9,473 bases of DNA from Actinomycetota bacterium (GTDB lineage: Bacteria > Actinomycetota > Actinomycetes > Streptosporangiales > Streptosporangiaceae): contig PMST01000269.1 in the NCBI GenBank assembly GCA_003168295.1, positions 286-9,758 on the forward strand, given 5' to 3'. The stretch's first letter is position 1, and each line of letters opens with the position of its first letter. Shown piece by piece: positions 1 through 9,473 of this stretch. Position numbers and translations under genes: made by a program. The notes below the pieces were generated by a model. That model made no database searches. It saw nothing but the letters and a program-made list of their open reading frames with translations, and was not told where the DNA came from.

Positions 1-901
1 TGGCCAGCACCCGGGCCACCGTTGTCTTCCCGGTCCCGGGCGGCCCGAGGAAGACGAAGTGCCGCATGGGCTTATCCGTGGTGACGCCGGCTACCGCACG
101 GCGCCGGGCCGCCTCGACCGAGGCGGCGATCGAGCGCACCTGTTCCTTGACCGAAGCCAGTCCGATCATCGCGTCGAGCTCGGCCATGGCGTCCTCGACC
201 GAGATCTGCGGCCGGGGCTTCGGCAGGCCGGGTCCGCTGCCCTGATGGTCACGCGCGGCGTGATCGGCGTAGGGCAGCGCGGCGGCCTGGGCCCGGGCGC
301 CGTAGCCCGGCTGGTTCGCAGGATGCGGACCTGGCCCGGGGTGCGCCGCCCCAGGCTTAGTGGCCGGCGCCGGTTTCGCCCCGCCAGCCGGATACATCCG
401 GGCGTCCTGCGCTCCCTTCGCCAACCGCCAGCCGACGACGGCGAGGGCGATGAGAACGGCCGCGATCACCCCGACAAGCGGCTGATGCGGCCAGATCCGC
501 AGCAGTACGACGCCGACCGGCAGCGACCAGAGCATCGCCCACGCCGTGGTGCGGCACGGCAGGTACCAGCGGGCCAGCGGTCCCGTCCCGGCCACCCAGG
601 CCACGACGAAGGGAAGGATGAGCAGCGGAAGCATATGCAGCCGGGGCACCTGGGAGAGCAGGTCGACAGGGATGCCCCAGGTGGCGACCGCGAACGCCGC
701 CCCGCGCCCGGGCCGCTTCTGGATCACGTCGACGGCCGCGCTGCCCAGGGCGTACAACAGGAGGAAAGGTGACACGAAAACGGCGACCACGAGAACGATC
801 AGCTTGACGTAGAGGGGCGCCTTGCCCACCCACCTCAAGATTCGGCTAGCCCGGCTCGGCTTGTCTCGCGCGGCGGGCTGAGCCCTATCCTTTGGCTGCA
901 T
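1..901 (-). CDS. Membrane-anchored AAA+ ATPase, CbxX/EccA-type (partial, C-terminus off the left edge)
   Basis: Reading the minus strand from ATG at 901-899 gives 300 uninterrupted codons to the window edge. A GAGGAAG ribosome site (912-906) lies 4 bases upstream of that ATG. The N-terminus is basic (residues 1-33). It is followed by about four hydrophobic segments (roughly 34-53, 88-105, 120-136, 141-158), a Pro/Gly/Ala-rich linker (about 165-220) and the start of an AAA+ module. The segment VEDAMAELDAMIGLASVKEQ is typical of the CbxX/CfqX/EccA family, and Walker A GPPGTGKT lies at residues 286-293. Walker B, the arginine finger and sensor motifs fall outside the window. Soluble members of this family act as remodelling ATPases, such as Rubisco activases and type VII secretion EccA; the membrane domain here suggests action at the cytoplasmic membrane. 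The substrate is unknown. The family call is secure; the function is not. Confidence 0.85.
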   Translation of the reverse strand, partial: MQPKDRAQPAARDKPSRASRILRWVGKAPLYVKLIVLVVAVFVSPFLLLYALGSAAVDVIQKRPGRGAAFAVATWGIPVDLLSQVPRLHMLPLLILPFVVAWVAGTGPLARWYLPCRTTAWAMLWSLPVGVVLLRIWPHQPLVGVIAAVLIALAVVGWRLAKGAQDARMYPAGGAKPAPATKPGAAHPGPGPHPANQPGYGARAQAAALPYADHAARDHQGSGPGLPKPRPQISVEDAMAELDAMIGLASVKEQVRSIAASVEAARRRAVAGVTTDKPMRHFVFLGPPGTGKTTVARVLA

Positions 902-1163
902 CTCGCTTCCTCGCCCCCACTCCCTGCCTCGCAGCCCCGCCGCGAACCCGGCCGTGAGGTCGCCTGGCCCACGGCCCCCGCACCTGGTTGCCGGACAGTC
1001 GTATGTCCCTGTATAGCGCATCACCAATGATCGCAACAGCACACACGTCGATACTGTCGGTGAAAAAATGCGCCGTGTCGACCTGAACCGAGAGCCTCCT
1101 GCTGAACGTCGCTAGATAACCATCATGGACCGTCCACTCGTCGGCACGTCAAGATGAACACCG

Positions 1164-3017: not shown

Positions 3018-3144
3018 AGGCCGCTCCTAGCCGCGCGGGCGCCCCGAGGCACAGGCTCAGCGGCCGGGGCGCTCTGCCGTCCCGGCTAGATAGCCGGCAC
3101 CCGCCGAGACGTTACAACGCCGGCTCGGTGGGCAGGTGGCATTC

Positions 3145-3774
3145 ATGCCTGTACTGAGAGCCTTCGCGCGCCCCATGGTGGCGTCCATCTTCATTCTCCA
3201 GGGTTATGACACCCTCCGTCGGCCCGAGCGGGTCGCGCCGACGGCCGAGCCGGTGGTCCGGGCGCTCGCCGAACGGGTCCCCGCCGTGCCGGCCAAGACC
3301 GAGCAGGCGGTGCGCCTCAACGGCGCCGTCCAGCTGGTGGCCGGCTCGCTGCTGGCCCTGGGCCGGTTCCCGCGGCTTTCCGCGCTCGCGATCGCCGCGA
3401 CCCTGGTCCCTACCACCCTGGCCGGGCACCGGTTCTGGGAGGACGACGAGGAAAAGGATCAGGTGCAGCAACGCATCCACTTCCTCAAGAACCTCTCGAT
3501 GTTCGGCGGCCTGCTGATCGCCGCCGCGGACACCGAGGGAAGCCCCTCGATCGCCTGGCGCACCCGCCACGCGGCCAAGACGGCACGCCGGGAGGCGTCG
3601 CTGGTCGCCAAGACGGCTAAGGTGTCGGGCCGGGCCGGGGCGAAGGCCGGAGTGACGTCGGGCCAGGCGGGTAAGGCGGCCGCCAAGGCCAGGGCGAAGG
3701 CGGCCAAGGCAGGAGCAAAGGCGGCCAGGGCGGGAGCGAAGGCGGCCACGGTCAGCAACCTGGTCACCAGGTAA
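3145..3774 (+). CDS. DoxX family membrane protein with a Lys/Ala-rich C-terminal tail
   Basis: I chose ATG 3145 (209 residues) because AGGTGG (3134-3139) lies 5 bases upstream. An in-frame GTG at 3136 would add three residues and is possible. Residues 1-130 are a DoxX-type domain with about four hydrophobic segments (8-22, 58-73, 78-96, 112-127). It has the family's RPMVASIF start, a G-Y-D-T-L-R-R-P loop, a conserved HRFW and a KNLSMFGGLLI last helix. DoxX proteins are small inner-membrane proteins, some linked to thiol/redox stress; the biochemical role here is not defined. Residues about 140-205 form a highly basic tail of Ala-Lys/Ala-Arg units (AKAAKAGAKAARAGAKAA), resembling histone H1 or mycobacterial HU-type tails and presumably cytoplasmic. 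It may bind nucleic acid, anionic lipid or cell-wall polymer. The gene stands alone, divergent from the GNAT gene. Confidence 0.88.
   Translation: MPVLRAFARPMVASIFILQGYDTLRRPERVAPTAEPVVRALAERVPAVPAKTEQAVRLNGAVQLVAGSLLALGRFPRLSALAIAATLVPTTLAGHRFWEDDEEKDQVQQRIHFLKNLSMFGGLLIAAADTEGSPSIAWRTRHAAKTARREASLVAKTAKVSGRAGAKAGVTSGQAGKAAAKARAKAAKAGAKAARAGAKAATVSNLVTR
3631..3751 (+). repeat. Degenerate coding repeat: Ala/Lys/Gly units of the DoxX tail
   Basis: The DNA cycles through variants of a gcgaaggcggcc-like unit and encodes repeated (R/K)-A-G-A-K-A-A motifs. Copies are imperfect, with codon variation (aag/aaa, gca/gcg/gcc), so the array has diverged while its charge pattern is kept. Such low-complexity DNA can vary in copy number between strains. 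Confidence 0.6.
3758..3772. repeat. 15-bp palindrome overlapping the DoxX stop codon
   Basis: ACCTGGTCACCAGGT is a perfect inverted repeat around a single central base and overlaps the first base of the TAA stop (3772-3774). As RNA it could only fold with a 3-base loop and a 6-bp stem, and no T-run follows, so a role as a simple terminator is doubtful. It could also be a protein-binding site or chance. Confidence 0.4.
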
Positions 3775-4054: not shown

Positions 4055-5896
4055 ATGAAATGGTTCTTCCAGCCGCTTCCTGCTGGTGGCGGAGCAGGGC
4101 GGGATGATGACGACTCCGCGCCTGCCGGCCTGATCGGCCTGCCGGCCGCGGTGCTGCAACGGCACGGCGCCCGGGTGCTCGACCCGGCGCACGCCGCAGT
4201 GGTGGATCAGCCGCGGAGCGCCGACGAGCCGGCTCCCCCGCCGCCCCGGCCGACGGTGTACCGGGCCAGGACGCTGCTGATCCCCGACGACCTGCTGCGA
4301 AATACCGGTTTTATCGCGGCCATCAACGCCGTCCTGGAACGAGTCGGGATGATGGTGGTCGCGCCGACCGAGGACCTGGACCCGGACCTGGACGCCAACA
4401 TCGGCCGCGGGGATGAGGAAATTCTCCGGCCGCTGCGGGAACTGCCGCGACCGGCGGTGCTGGCCCCGCGGCCAGGCGGTCTCGTCCCGGTGGTCATCGA
4501 CGCCTGGATCGCGCTGCAGGCGCTGCGCGCGGCCGCGCGCTCCGGCCGCACCCCGCGCGATCTAGAGGACCTGGACGAAACGGCGATCCAGCGGATTTCG
4601 GAGATCTCGCTGGAGCACCTGCTGGTCGGCTCGGCCATTATGGGTGATCCCGCCGACAGCGGCATGGGCGGGATCGCCGGGAACCAGAACAGCAGCAGTA
4701 ACGGCAGCGGGCCCACCATCACCGACTCCTACCAGTTCAGCGGCGGCGATACGCGTACCCCGGTGACACTTCTCCTCGACCCGCCGGCGCGTAGGTCGAC
4801 TAAGTACTGTGACGACAACTACGGTCGGCGTTCTGTGGTCGCCGTCCTGGACACCGGCGTCCGGCCTCATCCGTGGCTAGAAGGGGAACCGGGCCACCCC
4901 GGGGGCCCTTACGGCGCCGCCGCCGACGGCTTCGTCGCGGTCGATCCCCGGATCCAGGATGCGATCCGCCGGGAAGGTGAGCACGCGCGGGCCCGCGGCG
5001 ACAAGCCGCGCCAGGTGATCAGGGCGCCCTGGGACACGCCGGAGGCGGACTACCCGTTCGTCGGTGAGCTCAACCCGGCCCTGGGGCACGGCACGTTCAT
5101 CGCGGGCATCGTGCGCCAGGTCGCGCCCGACGCCCGGGTCCTGGCCGTGCGGGCCATGCACAGCGATGACGTCTGCAACGAAGGGGACATCATCTGCGGA
5201 CTGCGCCATCTGGCCAAGCGGATCTTGTTCGCCGAGGCAGGCGACCTGGCGGCGATGGTCGACGTGCTGTCGCTGTCGTTCGGCTACTTCAGCGAGTCCC
5301 GGCACGACCGGGTGGTTACTTCCGGGCTGTGGAAGGCGATCAAGGTCCTGCTTGACCTCGGTGTCGTGGTTGTCGTCGCGGCCGGAAACTACGCCATGAG
5401 CCAGGAGTTCTACCCGGCGGCGTTCTCGCAGGAACCGGCCGGGGCGGGTCAGGTGCCGGTGATCAGCGTGGGCGCGCTCAACCCGAACGGCACCAAGGCG
5501 AGCTTCAGCAACGACGGTCACTGGGTCACGGCCTGGGCCCAGGGCGCCGCCGTGGTCAGCACCTACCCGGTCGACGTGGACGGCAGCCGCAGCCCCGAGC
5601 TCAGGATGCCCGTCAACCGGAAGCCGCCAGGAGAATTGCCGCCCGGACGCGAGGCACTCGATCCGGATGACTACTCCGGCGGCTTCGCGGTCTGGAGCGG
5701 CACGTCGTTCTCGGCTCCGTATCTGGCTGCGCTCGTGGCCAGATCGCTGCTGGAAGGGGCGGGCGGCCTGCCGCTCAACGGGCCGGGAAAGCAAGCGGCG
5801 GCCGCGCGGGCGGTGGCCGCCATGGAGCGCCTGCGGGAGAAGGAGAAGGAGTTGCGCGAGGACGACTTGCAGGGGAAGGCCAGTCACGGTGGATGA
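4055..5896 (+). CDS. S8 (subtilisin-like) serine peptidase with a large N-terminal extension, no signal peptide
   Basis: This 613-residue protein starts at ATG 4055, with GGCGGGAG about 6 bases upstream. The catalytic triad is complete: Asp266 in VVAVLDTGV, His345 in LGHGTFIAGIV, Ser551 in SGTSFSAPYLAAL, with the oxyanion Asn445 in VVAAGN. The spacing from Asp to His is 79 residues, against about 32 in subtilisin, so there is an insertion (about 275-340) rich in charged residues. The first 255 residues are not protease: an N-terminal Gly/Asp-rich segment, a domain at about 65-195 (YRARTLLIPDDLLRNTGFI; then VPVVIDAWIALQALRAAA), and an Asn/Ser/Gly linker (206-220). The C-terminal end (about 585-606) is a charged helix. 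No signal peptide or membrane segment is seen, unlike most secreted S8 enzymes, so it should act in the cytoplasm. It is first in a four-gene operon. Likely targets are operon partners or stress-specific proteins (inference). Confidence 0.92.
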   Translation: MKWFFQPLPAGGGAGRDDDDSAPAGLIGLPAAVLQRHGARVLDPAHAAVVDQPRSADEPAPPPPRPTVYRARTLLIPDDLLRNTGFIAAINAVLERVGMMVVAPTEDLDPDLDANIGRGDEEILRPLRELPRPAVLAPRPGGLVPVVIDAWIALQALRAAARSGRTPRDLEDLDETAIQRISEISLEHLLVGSAIMGDPADSGMGGIAGNQNSSSNGSGPTITDSYQFSGGDTRTPVTLLLDPPARRSTKYCDDNYGRRSVVAVLDTGVRPHPWLEGEPGHPGGPYGAAADGFVAVDPRIQDAIRREGEHARARGDKPRQVIRAPWDTPEADYPFVGELNPALGHGTFIAGIVRQVAPDARVLAVRAMHSDDVCNEGDIICGLRHLAKRILFAEAGDLAAMVDVLSLSFGYFSESRHDRVVTSGLWKAIKVLLDLGVVVVVAAGNYAMSQEFYPAAFSQEPAGAGQVPVISVGALNPNGTKASFSNDGHWVTAWAQGAAVVSTYPVDVDGSRSPELRMPVNRKPPGELPPGREALDPDDYSGGFAVWSGTSFSAPYLAALVARSLLEGAGGLPLNGPGKQAAAARAVAAMERLREKEKELREDDLQGKASHGG

Positions 5897-6494
5897 CCAG
5901 GGCCGCGGGACGGTGCGGGCGGGCCAGTCGGATCGCGGCGTGCGCATCGCGGAGCTCGTCGGCGCGGCCAGGCAGGGCAGCGAGGACGCGCTGGGCCAGC
6001 TCGTGACCGAACTCAGCCCGATGCTCTGGCATGTGGCGCGCGCGGCCGGGCTGAGCTCGCACGATGCGGAGGACGTGCTGCAGACGGTATGGATGCGGCT
6101 GGTCGCGCACCTGGATGACATCCATACCTCGGCGGCCCTCACCGGCTGGCTGGTCACCACCGCGAGGCGGGAGGCCTGGCGGGTACGCGCCGTGGAGCGG
6201 CGCCAGCTTCCGGCCGATCAGGAACTGTTCGCTGAACTACCCGACCGGGGACCTGGATCGGAGGAGCAAGTCATCATGGACGACCAGCGACATGTGCTGT
6301 GGACGGCTGTCAGCCGGCTATCGGCGCGGTGCCAGGAACTACTGCGGATCGTCGCCTTCGCACCGCGTCCGGACTACGCGACGGTGGCGGCCGAACTTGG
6401 CCTGGCGATCGGGAGCATCGGTCCCACCCGCGGCCGGTGCCTGGCCAAGCTCCGCGCCCTGCTCGGCCTTGATGCCGAGGGATGCCCGCGATGA
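5889..6494 (+). CDS. ECF-like sigma-70 family RNA polymerase sigma factor
   Basis: I start this 201-residue protein at GTG 5889, which overlaps the protease stop (TGA 5894-5896) by 8 bases. AGGGGAAGG (5871-5879) lies 9 bases upstream. The frame remains open further upstream, but that part overlaps protease codons. Region 2 covers about residues 34-102, with the core-binding and -10 recognition helices (AEDVLQTVWMRLVAHLDDI, then TGWLVTTARREAWRVR). Region 4 covers about 136-192 (LSARCQELLRIV; a helix-turn-helix at about DYATVAAELGLAIGSIGPTRGRCLAKL) and reads the -35. Regions 1 and 3 are absent, as in ECF factors. It should direct RNA polymerase to a small regulon. No zinc-binding (HxxxCxxC) anti-sigma or membrane anti-sigma follows; the next gene is a small soluble protein that could serve instead. 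Expression is probably translationally coupled to the protease. Confidence 0.9.
   Translation: MDDQGRGTVRAGQSDRGVRIAELVGAARQGSEDALGQLVTELSPMLWHVARAAGLSSHDAEDVLQTVWMRLVAHLDDIHTSAALTGWLVTTARREAWRVRAVERRQLPADQELFAELPDRGPGSEEQVIMDDQRHVLWTAVSRLSARCQELLRIVAFAPRPDYATVAAELGLAIGSIGPTRGRCLAKLRALLGLDAEGCPR
6477..6481 (+). promoter_or_regulatory. Ribosome site deciding the start of the small operon protein
   Basis: GAGGG directly abuts an ATG at 6482 but lies 9 bases before the ATG at 6491, which forms an ATGA overlap with the sigma-factor stop. The spacing favours 6491. Confidence 0.55.
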
Positions 6495-7003
6495 CCGTCT
6501 CGGACTCGGGCGGCCTGCCGTCCGCTGACGAGCCGCTCGACGACATCGATTTCGGGCTGCTTGACGATATCCGCGACATGTTCGACGCCACCGACCCCAT
6601 GCCGGCCGACCTGCCCGAGCGGATCCGTTTCTTCCTCGCGCTCCGCGACCTGGAGATCGAGGTGGCCCGGCTGGTCGCGCAGGAGGACCAGCCCGCGCTG
6701 GCCGTCCGCGGTGCGGAGCTGAGCCGCACGATCACCTTCGACAGCGACAGCCTGACCATCATGATCAGGATCGACGCGAACCGGGACGGGACGGTCCGCG
6801 TCGACGGGTGGCTGGCGCCGCCGCAACGCCGTGAGATCGAGATGAAGACCACCGCCAATGCACTCACCGTCAGCAGCGATGAACAGGGCCGTTTCGCCTT
6901 CGTCCGGGTGCCCCGCGGCACGGCTCAAGTTATCGTCAGGCCCGCGACGGCGGGGCCGGGCGGAGCCGGGCCGTCAGTCGTGACGCCCGCCCTCATCCTT
7001 TAA
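6491..7003 (+). CDS. Small two-part operon protein, possible sigma/CHAT partner (function unknown)
   Basis: This 170-residue protein starts at ATG 6491, overlapping the sigma stop by 4 bases (ATGA); an earlier ATG at 6482 would add three residues. It has no signal peptide, membrane segment or cysteine. Residues about 14-66 are acidic and predicted helical (DIDFGLLDDIRDMFD; then LPERIRFFLALRDLEIEVARLV). Residues about 78-152 look like an all-beta, Ig/carboxypeptidase-regulatory-like fold: alternating hydrophobic strands ending in DEQGRFAFVRVPRGTAQVIV. A Gly/Pro-rich tail follows. From memory, similar small proteins with a 'DP(M/V)P' helix, a 'DLEIEVARL' helix and a 'D..GRF....VP.G' strand pair sit beside sigma and CHAT genes in many actinobacteria; I could not verify this here. 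Its place between a sigma factor and a protease makes it a candidate sigma inhibitor, adaptor or cleavage substrate, by position only. Confidence 0.75.
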   Translation: MTVSDSGGLPSADEPLDDIDFGLLDDIRDMFDATDPMPADLPERIRFFLALRDLEIEVARLVAQEDQPALAVRGAELSRTITFDSDSLTIMIRIDANRDGTVRVDGWLAPPQRREIEMKTTANALTVSSDEQGRFAFVRVPRGTAQVIVRPATAGPGGAGPSVVTPALIL

Positions 7004-7004
7004 C

Positions 7005-7010
7005 CGGAGG
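7005..7010 (+). promoter_or_regulatory. Shine-Dalgarno site of the TPR-CHAT gene
   Basis: CGGAGG lies 10 bases before ATG 7021, just past the TAA at 7001-7003. It supports this start and shows that the fourth gene has its own ribosome site, while the two genes before it overlap their upstream neighbours. Confidence 0.65.
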
Positions 7011-7020
7011 CGCCTGCCGA

Positions 7021-9473
7021 ATGCTCCGCGCCGAGCGGCGCTCCAGCCGCTCCGACCGTTCGCTGGCCCAGGTCGAGCGCCGGGCCCGCGAGGCACGCGA
7101 CCGCGCCCTGCGGGAAGGTAACGCTGGCCGCCCCGCTGTCGGTGCCCGCTACGCCCGCGCCGGACTTCGGCAGCTGGGCTGGGTGGAGGACGCGGAGCAA
7201 CCCGACGCGTCGCAGCTGCCCGAGACGCATCGCGGGCTGGCCTTCCGGATGGTCGTCATCTTGGCGGGATGGGAATCCAAGCAGGGCCGGACCGAGTACG
7301 GGCTGCGCCTCCTCGACCGCGCCGAGGCTCTGGTCGCGGCGGATGACCGGGGTCTCCTGCTCGGCCAGCGCGGCCTGCTCTTGATGCGGACGTGGCGGCG
7401 AAGCGATGCACTTCGGTTTTTCGACGAGGCAGTAGCCCTCCTGCAGGGGAACCCGGCCGAAACTGCCGCCCTGGCGGGCACCTTGCTGAATAGATCCTTC
7501 GCGCACCTCAACGCCGGCGACGTCCGGCGGGCGCGCCGGGACGCGATGTGGTGCCAGCAGGTGGCGGCGGACGCGGGACACGACCTGATCGCGGCCAAGG
7601 CGCTGCACAACCTGGGCTACTGCGAGCTGCTGGCCGGCGACATTCCGGCCGCGCTGCAGGTCTTCAACACGGCCGCCAGCGGTTACACGCTGAACGGGCC
7701 CGGCATGCTGCCCGTGCTGGCCATGGACAAGGCCCGGGCGCTGCACGCGGCCGGCTTGTCCGGTGATGCGGCCGCTGAGCTGGACGCTGCGATGGACTCG
7801 TTCCGGCAACAGCGGCTTGATTACGATCTCGCCGAAGCGGAACTGGCCCGGGCCGAGGCCGCGCTGGCCGCCGGGGAGGCGTCCGTCGCGCGCCGCTGGG
7901 CGGCGGCGGCGCAGCGGCGGTTCCGCCGGCAGGACAATGAGGCATGCGCCTGCCTGGCCGAACTCACCCAGCTGCGGGCACGCTCGATCTCGGCCGGCCG
8001 CCCGGCGCCCATCGTGACCGAGGCGCTGTCGCTGGCCCACCGTCTGCGGAACTGCGGCCTGAGCGGGGACGCGGACATAGCGGAACTCCTCGCGGCCCGG
8101 GTGCTGATCGCGGGCGGGCGAGCCGATGAGGCGCGGCGGCTGATCGCGGACGGACAGCCGATCGCGGACGGACAGCCGATCGCGGACGGGCGGCGCCGCG
8201 GGCAGGTGGTGTCGCTGACCGCCGGCTTGCTGCGCCGGCTGGTCCGGGCCGAGCTAGCGGAGCAGGAAGGACGGCGGGGGGCGGCGCTGGCCGAGCTCAG
8301 GGCGGGCCTGGCGACGGTGCAGGCCCGGCGCGGCCGGCTCGGCAGCATCGACCTGCAGACCGGCATCGCCGCACAGGGCGCGGAGCTGGCCGCCGCTGGC
8401 CTGCGGCTGGCCCTGGACCGCGGCTCCGCACCGCTGGTGTTCGCCTGGCTGGAACGCTCCCGGGCCCAGGCCTTCCGGGTCAGGCCGGTGCGACCGCCCG
8501 CCGATCCGCAGGTCGCGGCCGCCCTAGCTGAGCTGCGCCAACTCGGCCGCCTGCTCCGCGAGGCCGAGCTGAAAGGCAAGCGCGACCCACCCATGGCGGC
8601 TAGGTACGCTGACCTGAGGCGCGAGGTCGCAGAGCACGACCGGCAGGCCAGCGGCCTCGGCCAGGCCGCCGCTCAGGCCAGCCTCGGCGAAGTGCATGCG
8701 GCCCTGGCCGAGAGCCGGCAGAACCTGGTCGGCATCTTGGCCAGGCACGGCCAGATGCTCGCGGTCGTGGCCGGCCGCGGATCGGTGCGCCTGATTGAAC
8801 TCGGCGACCTGGAGGAGGCCGCGGAGGCGGCCCGGCGGCTGAACGCCGATCTCGACACCCTGGCCGGACGGCGGCTGCCCGCCCGACTGGAGGCCGTGAT
8901 CCGGGAGTCGATCCGGCACCAGACGGGAATTCTCACGGCCGAGATCCTCGCGCCGCTGCGATCTTCGCTCGGCGAGGGCGGCGTCGTGTTTGTTCCGTCC
9001 GGACCGCTGGCGAGCATTCCCTGGAGCGTGCTGCCTGACCTGCGCGGACGGCCGGTCACGGTATGCCCGTCCGCGTCTTCGTGGCTCGCCGCCTGGCGGC
9101 GCGGGCAGGCCGGGGCCACGGCTACCTCGCCACCACTCCTAGTCGCAGGTCCGGACCTGGAGCACGCGATCCCGGAAATCACCGAGATAGCCAAGATCTA
9201 CCCGGGCTGTCAGCCCCTGCTGGCCGAAACGGCCACCGTGAGCAGCACGTTGCACGCCCTGGACGGCGCACCGCTGGCCCACCTGGCCGCGCACGGGCAC
9301 CACGATCAGGAGAATTTCCTGTTCTCCCGGCTCGACCTGGCCGACGGCCCGCTGATGGCCTACGACATCCAGCAGCTCACCGCCGCTCCCCGGCACGTGG
9401 TCCTGTCATCCTGCGACGTCGGGCGGACCGTGGTACGCCCAGGCGAGGAGATCCTCGGCTTCACCGCCGCCCT
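7021..9473 (+). CDS. TPR-CHAT protein: CHAT (caspase-like) protease domain with tetratricopeptide-like helical N-terminus (partial, runs off the right edge)
   Basis: From ATG 7021 the frame is open for 817 codons to the window end, with no stop. Residues about 30-420 are Ala/Leu/Arg-rich helical repeats of TPR type (for example AKALHNLGYCELLAGDIPAA, residues 192-211, then LQVFNTAASGY), forming a protein- or signal-binding scaffold. Residues about 420-555 are long charged helices. The CHAT domain begins near 555 (LGEVHAALAESRQNLVGILA). It shows the family's FVPSGPLASIPWSVLPD core, then the catalytic His758 in HLAAHGHH and Cys798 in VVLSSCDVGRT. Both residues are present, so the enzyme should be an active cysteine protease of the caspase/separase clan. 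Its C-terminal end is missing. A tandem hexapeptide repeat (IADGQP) lies at 375-390. It is the fourth gene of the operon and the likely sensor-effector; substrates may be the neighbouring proteins (inference). Confidence 0.92.
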   Translation, partial: MLRAERRSSRSDRSLAQVERRAREARDRALREGNAGRPAVGARYARAGLRQLGWVEDAEQPDASQLPETHRGLAFRMVVILAGWESKQGRTEYGLRLLDRAEALVAADDRGLLLGQRGLLLMRTWRRSDALRFFDEAVALLQGNPAETAALAGTLLNRSFAHLNAGDVRRARRDAMWCQQVAADAGHDLIAAKALHNLGYCELLAGDIPAALQVFNTAASGYTLNGPGMLPVLAMDKARALHAAGLSGDAAAELDAAMDSFRQQRLDYDLAEAELARAEAALAAGEASVARRWAAAAQRRFRRQDNEACACLAELTQLRARSISAGRPAPIVTEALSLAHRLRNCGLSGDADIAELLAARVLIAGGRADEARRLIADGQPIADGQPIADGRRRGQVVSLTAGLLRRLVRAELAEQEGRRGAALAELRAGLATVQARRGRLGSIDLQTGIAAQGAELAAAGLRLALDRGSAPLVFAWLERSRAQAFRVRPVRPPADPQVAAALAELRQLGRLLREAELKGKRDPPMAARYADLRREVAEHDRQASGLGQAAAQASLGEVHAALAESRQNLVGILARHGQMLAVVAGRGSVRLIELGDLEEAAEAARRLNADLDTLAGRRLPARLEAVIRESIRHQTGILTAEILAPLRSSLGEGGVVFVPSGPLASIPWSVLPDLRGRPVTVCPSASSWLAAWRRGQAGATATSPPLLVAGPDLEHAIPEITEIAKIYPGCQPLLAETATVSSTLHALDGAPLAHLAAHGHHDQENFLFSRLDLADGPLMAYDIQQLTAAPRHVVLSSCDVGRTVVRPGEEILGFTAA
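8143..8190 (+). repeat. 18-bp in-frame tandem repeat in the TPR-CHAT gene
   Basis: The unit ATCGCGGACGGACAGCCG occurs perfectly at 8143-8160 and 8161-8178. A third partial copy at 8179-8190 has one base changed. It encodes IADGQP twice, then IADG. The identity of the two full copies points to a recent expansion by slippage, or to strong homogenisation. It adds a flexible loop between helices. Confidence 0.9.

Follow-up and report, generated by a model that had tools for sequence, protein, structure and literature searches.

A 9,473-nucleotide stretch of contig PMST01000269.1 (GenBank assembly GCA_003168295.1, positions 286 to 9,758 of the forward strand), from an actinomycetote of the family Streptosporangiaceae, carries four consecutive plus-strand genes; the whole stretch is called the window below. 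The genes encode a subtilisin-like serine protease (S8), an extracytoplasmic function (ECF) sigma factor (SIG), a small protein (SML) and a TPR-CHAT cysteine protease (CHAT). They form one conserved module, which, to judge from the overlaps, is probably co-transcribed, as an earlier note on this DNA had supposed. The linkage of these genes is the known context of sigma factor group ECF54; the new part is the mechanism that we propose for SML, which looks like a hub and not an enzyme. In this proposal, held tentatively and at somewhat below an even chance, SML would be a soluble protein acting as anti-sigma factor or adaptor, and its cleavage by CHAT, possibly aided by S8, would release the sigma factor. 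Among the functional ideas of the earlier note, the putative freeing of the sigma factor by a protease is the best supported; direct evidence for activation of one protease by the other was not found.

4055..5896, plus strand: S8 (subtilisin-like) serine protease; ATG at 4055, stop at 5894-5896, 613 residues; Pfam PF00082
5889..6494, plus strand: SIG, ECF sigma factor; GTG start, 201 residues; Sigma70_r2, TIGR02937
6491..7003, plus strand: SML, proposed anti-sigma factor or adaptor and protease substrate; ATG at 6491, 170 residues; AlphaFold2 layout
6707..6709, plus strand: Arg73 codon of SML, proposed cleavage site; near-invariant arginine in a predicted flexible linker
7021..9473, running off the window, plus strand: TPR-CHAT cysteine protease; ATG at 7021, 817 residues within the window; PF12770

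Adjacent genes overlap by 8 bp (S8/SIG) and, at an ATGA, by 4 bp (SIG/SML), and 17 bp separate SML from CHAT. On re-checking, all coordinates agree with the genes and junctions listed in the earlier note, and the catalytic residues that it named (Asp266, His345 and Ser551 of S8; His758 and Cys798 of CHAT) are present. An in-frame ATG at 6482 would lengthen SML by three residues; the start at 6491 is preferred because most of the 120 homologs listed are 168-170 residues long.

Conservation of the gene set

When genomes were scanned with CHAT alone, one relative was confirmed: locus L001, where the four genes recur in identical order. Its record is labelled Nocardiopsis sp., a soil metagenome-assembled genome. 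Set 1 consists of the window, L001 and 40 further regions, namely the top 43 rows of matches less L001's own and those of genomes G184 and G245, which lie near contig ends. With profiles built partly from the same loci, all 42 loci have SIG immediately upstream of SML and CHAT no more than 6 kb away, and 41 have S8; all four genes occur together in 41 of the 42 loci, window and L001 included, so that chance is an unlikely source of the arrangement. Of the 41 loci with S8, 26 have it colinear with CHAT and 15 have the two divergent. One locus (L043) is counted as divergent for its S8 on the opposite strand, though its CHAT shares the strand of SIG and SML. The earlier note had proposed conserved linkage as a check on its reading, and the linkage is indeed there, across the colinear and divergent arrangements as well.

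Set 2 was drawn from a phylum-wide sample, in which 52 of 396 genomes have an SML match, weak ones included. It comprises 43 SML in 40 regions (rows 2 to 44 of 63, several from some genomes, the 19 weakest dropped) and was scanned with the set-1 profiles frozen. SIG lies directly upstream of 34 of these SML, CHAT lies within 6 kb of 30, and S8 accompanies 27. Over all fetched loci, overlapping ones counted, a SIG gene is directly upstream on the same strand for 324 of 339 SML matches. SML homologs were found in 95 of 249 genomes from the order of L001. Other samples, searched each with an SML of its own, gave 90 of 296 genomes class-wide (weak matches included), 7 of 36 from the order of G300 and 37 of 198 from that of G334. 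In the order of G272, likewise with its own query, 100 of 245 genomes have a match, weak ones included, and 85 have a strong one (E <1e-55; 65-100% identity); given these 85, SML looks like one orthologous host gene.

The departures from the full set are also informative. SIG and SML occur with no protease within 6 kb for 9 of the 43 set-2 SML, two of them near contig ends. Conversely, three SML share one SIG in L128 and two share one in L118; each of these loci also has two S8 and two CHAT, which suggests that a single sigma factor receives several protease inputs. Since SIG-SML can occur alone and SML-S8-CHAT without an adjacent SIG, SML is what a sigma unit and a protease unit have in common, the position in which a substrate or adaptor that binds the sigma factor would be expected. 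An intact SIG next to SML is missing from L130 and L138 too. Genome G001 has four SML matches; in one of them (L130, contig C319) the sigma match falls into two pieces in different frames, and this paralogous set may be decaying. Four of the 43 SML (L102, L120, L129 and L135) are without any of the three partners in the fetched stretch.

This linkage is already in print and is therefore no discovery. In its account of ECF54, a 2022 review (PMC8999054, citing Casas-Pastor 2021 and Huang 2015) lists proteins of the subtilase, CHAT and 'carboxypeptidase' kinds as conserved neighbours of this group, names a representative from Geodermatophilus, and reports the proposal that ECF54 is regulated by proteolysis with no anti-sigma factor. 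The set described here resembles ECF54 in its ECF sigma factor, in the subtilase, CHAT and 'carboxypeptidase' neighbours and in being actinobacterial, and is placed there by gene context, not by a group profile. It differs in that the 'carboxypeptidase' is here taken to be SML, a non-catalytic protein and possibly an anti-sigma factor or substrate. No experiment on this gene set was found among paper titles, in a search without most of the subscription literature, and the main text of a paper on ECF deletions in Streptomyces (PMC11256431) does not mention 'CHAT'.

The small protein and its linker arginine

The AlphaFold2 model of SML has a mean predicted local distance difference test score (pLDDT) of 80.5. 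In its 170-residue numbering it predicts helices at 18-34 and 41-53, a linker at 68-74 with pLDDT <50, and an Ig-like beta-sandwich at 79-164. The window SML has no Pfam or NCBIfam match above cut-off, and no Pfam match to a peptidase domain was found in any of 59 SML members at E 0.1. CarboxypepD_reg, a beta-sandwich domain and not a peptidase, matches weakly in 36 of the 59, the window SML being under the cut-off. A domain of this type is probably the source of the 'carboxypeptidase' label in print, and we infer that SML is the protein so labelled in the ECF54 context.

Position 73 is arginine in 261 of 263 nonredundant SML sequences. This conservation is on a par with that of the most conserved glycine and phenylalanine of the beta-sandwich, and the linker residues around Arg73 vary in kind and number. 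Two sequences are exceptions: L136 has an arginine one column off, and L139 is without one. CHAT was searched for in 11 genomes, namely eight of the nine that carry SIG-SML without local proteases (G001 left out) and three with a partnerless SML (G291, G438 and G518). Elsewhere in eight of the 11 there is a CHAT of family grade (413-1017 bits); G635 and G518 have weak matches only (46 and 26 bits, respectively), and the genome of L139 (G631) is the only one without a match.

The proteases and the sigma factor

Peptidase_S8 (PF00082) matches residues 258-563 of S8 (E 4e-20), and Asn445 completes the three catalytic residues given above. His345, Asn445 and Ser551 are identical in 25 of 25 aligned S8 (of the 41 in set 1), and Asp266 in all 23 whose stretch reaches that position. 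The window protein has an N-terminal extension of about 250 residues ahead of the catalytic domain; in about half of the aligned S8, whose stretches were cut at profile matches, a long extension is apparently absent. Inspection by eye revealed no signal peptide. A (G/P)(G/D)EP motif, also seen by eye, stands just before the catalytic domain in the long forms and in several short ones, and could serve for inhibition or docking. Among the S8 homologs, one with 62% identity carries the name Trebonia. The type VII secretion mycosin ranks first among the NCBIfam matches of S8 (79 bits, far under the cut-off of 279); besides this and an EccA match, also under cut-off, no type VII secretion genes were noticed in the window.

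In CHAT, Pfam recognizes the CHAT domain (PF12770) at E 8e-17 and TPR at E 0.012 only. The frame is still open at 9473, about 60 residues short of the L001 ortholog. The His/Cys dyad (His741 and Cys781 in L001) is identical in 40 of 40 aligned CHAT, two partial set-1 proteins having been left out. In the predicted model of the L001 ortholog (pLDDT 87.7) a TPR-like helical superhelix is clear, and the closest structures are Csx29 of Craspase and separase; the Z-score of the gingipain match falls among those of TPR-only matches of the same size. The CHAT family thus combines, as modelled, a TPR superhelix and a caspase-like fold with the His/Cys dyad, and protease activity is predicted. No transmembrane part was noticed in CHAT. 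A short in-frame tandem repeat within the CHAT gene (window 8141-8190), coding IADGQPIADGQPIADG, was not seen in the L001 ortholog.

SIG is an ECF sigma factor with regions 2 and 4 and no C-terminal extension. It matches Sigma70_r2 (E 6e-10) and, over residues 33-190, TIGR02937 (sigma70-ECF; 68.5 bits against a cut-off of 42.9). Pfam finds region 2 in 17 of 17 aligned SIG (of 42 set-1 sigma factors) and region 4 in only 3-4 of the 17, that of the window not among them. All 17 carry a GxxGxxRxRC motif close to the C-terminus.

Two further genes lie upstream of the operon. A DoxX-family protein with a long Ala/Lys-rich tail is encoded just ahead of it, at 3136-3774, and an AAA gene at the start of the window (2-1042) has EccA as its best NCBIfam match (65 bits, far under the cut-off of 467).

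A proposed proteolytic switch

From the observed gene order, linkage, catalytic residues and conservation of the arginine, together with the predicted SML layout and CHAT fold, we infer the remaining parts of a sigma switch run by proteolysis in the cytoplasm: the binding of SML to the sigma factor, the cleavage, its site, the role of S8 and the signal. SML would bind the ECF sigma factor, probably by its N-terminal helices, and keep it inactive. TPR-CHAT would recognize SML, its TPR part serving as sensor or docking surface. On a cue, CHAT would cut the flexible SML linker at Arg73, so that the helical part and the beta-sandwich come apart, and the freed sigma factor could then transcribe its targets. 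S8 may subsequently destroy the fragments, or may remove SML or the sigma factor to set or reset the system. These parts are not equally secure. Contact between SML and the sigma factor is rather likely; cleavage of SML by CHAT or S8 has about an even chance; and if SML is cut, Arg73 is probably the place.

A close known parallel is the type III-E CASP/Craspase system, in which the TPR-CHAT protease Csx29 cuts Csx30, the inhibitor of CASP-sigma (PMC10028731). A Csx29-like fold, an ECF sigma factor and a small protein with one fixed linker arginine make the cutting of SML by CHAT an economical model. There are differences: SML has 170 residues and Csx30 at least 565, the S8 protease is added here, and the linker arginine is conserved whereas the Craspase cut sites, as described, are not (PMC11106740). 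Cleavage of SML by CHAT would accordingly be sequence-specific, unlike that by Craspase. The proposal in its fullest form, which is doubtful, is that the set may be a CRISPR-free counterpart of the CASP relay, in which a separase-like, Arg-specific TPR-CHAT cuts a soluble anti-sigma factor at a near-invariant arginine of its flexible linker and thereby fires an ECF sigma factor; an intracellular subtilisin would be the second protease. No gRAMP/Cas7-11-like recurrent neighbour was noticed within 6 kb of the 69 CHAT-bearing loci, no Cas-model or CRISPR-array scan having been made.

Other systems share single features with the proposed one. DdvA, from Myxococcus, is itself a membrane anti-sigma factor, whereas CHAT here is a separate protein with an intact His/Cys dyad. 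The DdvA structures (PDB 8rot, 8rw5) are described as those of a transmembrane anti-sigma factor with a CHAT domain. CalpL-CalpT-CalpS, from type III CRISPR, is alike in that a protease cuts an anti-sigma factor and frees the sigma factor (PMC11229360), and different in that the protease is of the Lon family with a SAVED sensor. The EACC2/TRADD-N-type conflict systems, as described, have other domains, EACC2 and DUF1822 (PMC8195603). Separase and gingipain R, of clan CD, have other substrates and partners than CHAT here.

Several observations weigh against, or lend no support to, cleavage of SML at Arg73 and the release of a bound sigma factor. First, an invariant arginine is not what Csx29 itself would predict, because the Craspase cut sites are not conserved, and the Csx29 match of the L001 CHAT model has a large root-mean-square deviation (8.5 over 560). 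Second, of the nine SIG-SML loci that lack proteases nearby, eight keep the arginine; one of the eight is L117, in whose genome (G635) the CHAT matches are all weak. The joint absence of arginine and CHAT in L139 is the case of a single divergent sequence. Arg73 could instead be a binding residue. Third, Pfam did not find a recognized anti-sigma domain in SML. Fourth, SIG-SML residue coupling (251 pairs, effective number 164) picks out no surface or region pair. With a reduced alphabet, the mean of the top 30 scores was higher than in any of the 40 within-cluster permutations at either cluster cut, which shared ancestry can also produce, and the top score was above 39 of 40 and 40 of 40 at the two cuts. 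Pairs between sigma region 2 and the SML N-terminus make up 10 of the top 30, a number reached by 7 and 6 of 40 permutations, and those between sigma region 4 and the SML N-terminus make up 4, reached by 30 and 34. Full- and reduced-alphabet runs put different pairs first, and the coupling result is not used as support. Finally, no convincing autoregulatory promoter motif was found in 31 colinear and 26 divergent regions. The best bipartite words are barely above shuffles (11 against a maximum of 9; 15 against 14); for some 7- and 8-mers the counts are higher than in the shuffles (21 against 18; 13 against 10; 17 against 15), and these were not used because most are GC-rich or possibly coding.

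Alternative explanations

It is unlikely, in our estimate, that the published ECF54 proposal holds as it stands. According to it, there is no anti-sigma factor, the proteases degrade the sigma factor directly and a protease-blocking cue lets it accumulate, which would leave SML as adaptor or bystander. The review reports this beside the case of AntA and ClpXP (PMC8999054), and the presence of two proteases from different clans next to a single sigma factor would fit it. However, it leaves the constant adjacency of sigma factor and SML (324/339) and the near-invariant linker arginine unexplained, and in SML, the supposed carboxypeptidase, Pfam detects no peptidase, only a weak match to the regulatory-like beta domain in 36 of the 59 members.

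A protease cascade is also unlikely. Here CHAT would cut the N-terminal extension of an S8 zymogen, S8 would be the executor, SML would guard or dock the proteases, and the sigma factor would tune expression. The occurrence of SML with S8 and CHAT but no adjacent sigma gene of its own in L118 and L128 fits such a scheme, and the long S8 N-terminus of the window clade and the (G/P)(G/D)EP motif could form the inhibitory segment; for SAVED-CHAT, immunity by way of a proteolytic cascade has been described (PMC11229360). Yet about half of the aligned S8, cut as they are at profile matches, appear without the long extension, and 9 of 43 SML stand beside a sigma gene with no protease within 6 kb, so that sigma factor and SML can be their own unit.

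That the genes form a loose operon of regulators, co-regulated without direct interaction, is improbable. The four of 43 phylum-sample SML with none of the three partners in the fetched stretch agree with it, but the linkage outlasts both the rearrangement between colinear and divergent forms (26 and 15 of 41 loci) and tandem duplication.

Most improbable is a module for phage defence or programmed death, with the proteases killing or arresting the cell and the sigma factor amplifying the response: CHAT proteins do act in CRISPR type III immunity (PMC10028731, PMC11229360) and the L001 CHAT model resembles Csx29, but PADLOC gave no specific match, no recurrent neighbour was recognized by eye as a defence gene, the single SML match in a phage collection looks mislabelled, and in one order roughly one sampled genome in three has an apparent ortholog.

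The earlier note had suggested phage defence or developmental cell death, and PADLOC, the neighbours and the phage collection lend this no support. PADLOC matched S8 only generically (subtilase, E 3e-7; IetS, E 0.02) and the other three proteins not at all. Within 6 kb of the 69 CHAT-bearing loci, 14 neighbour families recur in at least five loci, the widest in 12. None was recognized by eye as a defence gene, the neighbours having been clustered without a PADLOC or Pfam scan, and the defence-island reading was rejected. An ATPase-like family of about 666 residues (for example, L049, 2798-4795) lies near the set in 8 of the 69 loci, at a median of 186 bp.

Two candidates for mobile copies were rejected. 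With the window SML as query, a collection of 50,697 phage records gave one match, MT838002.1 (L336), a record from human faeces under the label 'UNVERIFIED Bacteriophage sp.'. It carries S8-SIG-SML-CHAT followed, by eye, by cysteine-synthase and serine-acetyltransferase genes, and looks like a mislabelled bacterial contig. With the SML of L106, a plasmid collection gave only NZ_LT559118.1 of Nonomuraea gerenzanensis (L335), filed as 'plasmid I', which at 11.85 Mb must be the chromosome. The CHAT match in L335 is split over two frames.

Implications

If SML is a cleaved anti-sigma factor, ECF54 gains a concrete mechanism unlike the published proposal, and a link between caspase/separase-type proteases and transcription would exist outside CRISPR. 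SML homologs, which mark this gene set, are present in a sizeable share of actinomycete genomes. A CRISPR-free counterpart of the CASP relay, if true, would be widespread in actinomycetes. It would also suggest that type III-E CRISPR took over a pre-existing CHAT/anti-sigma/sigma switch, exchanging its native sensor for an RNA-guided one.
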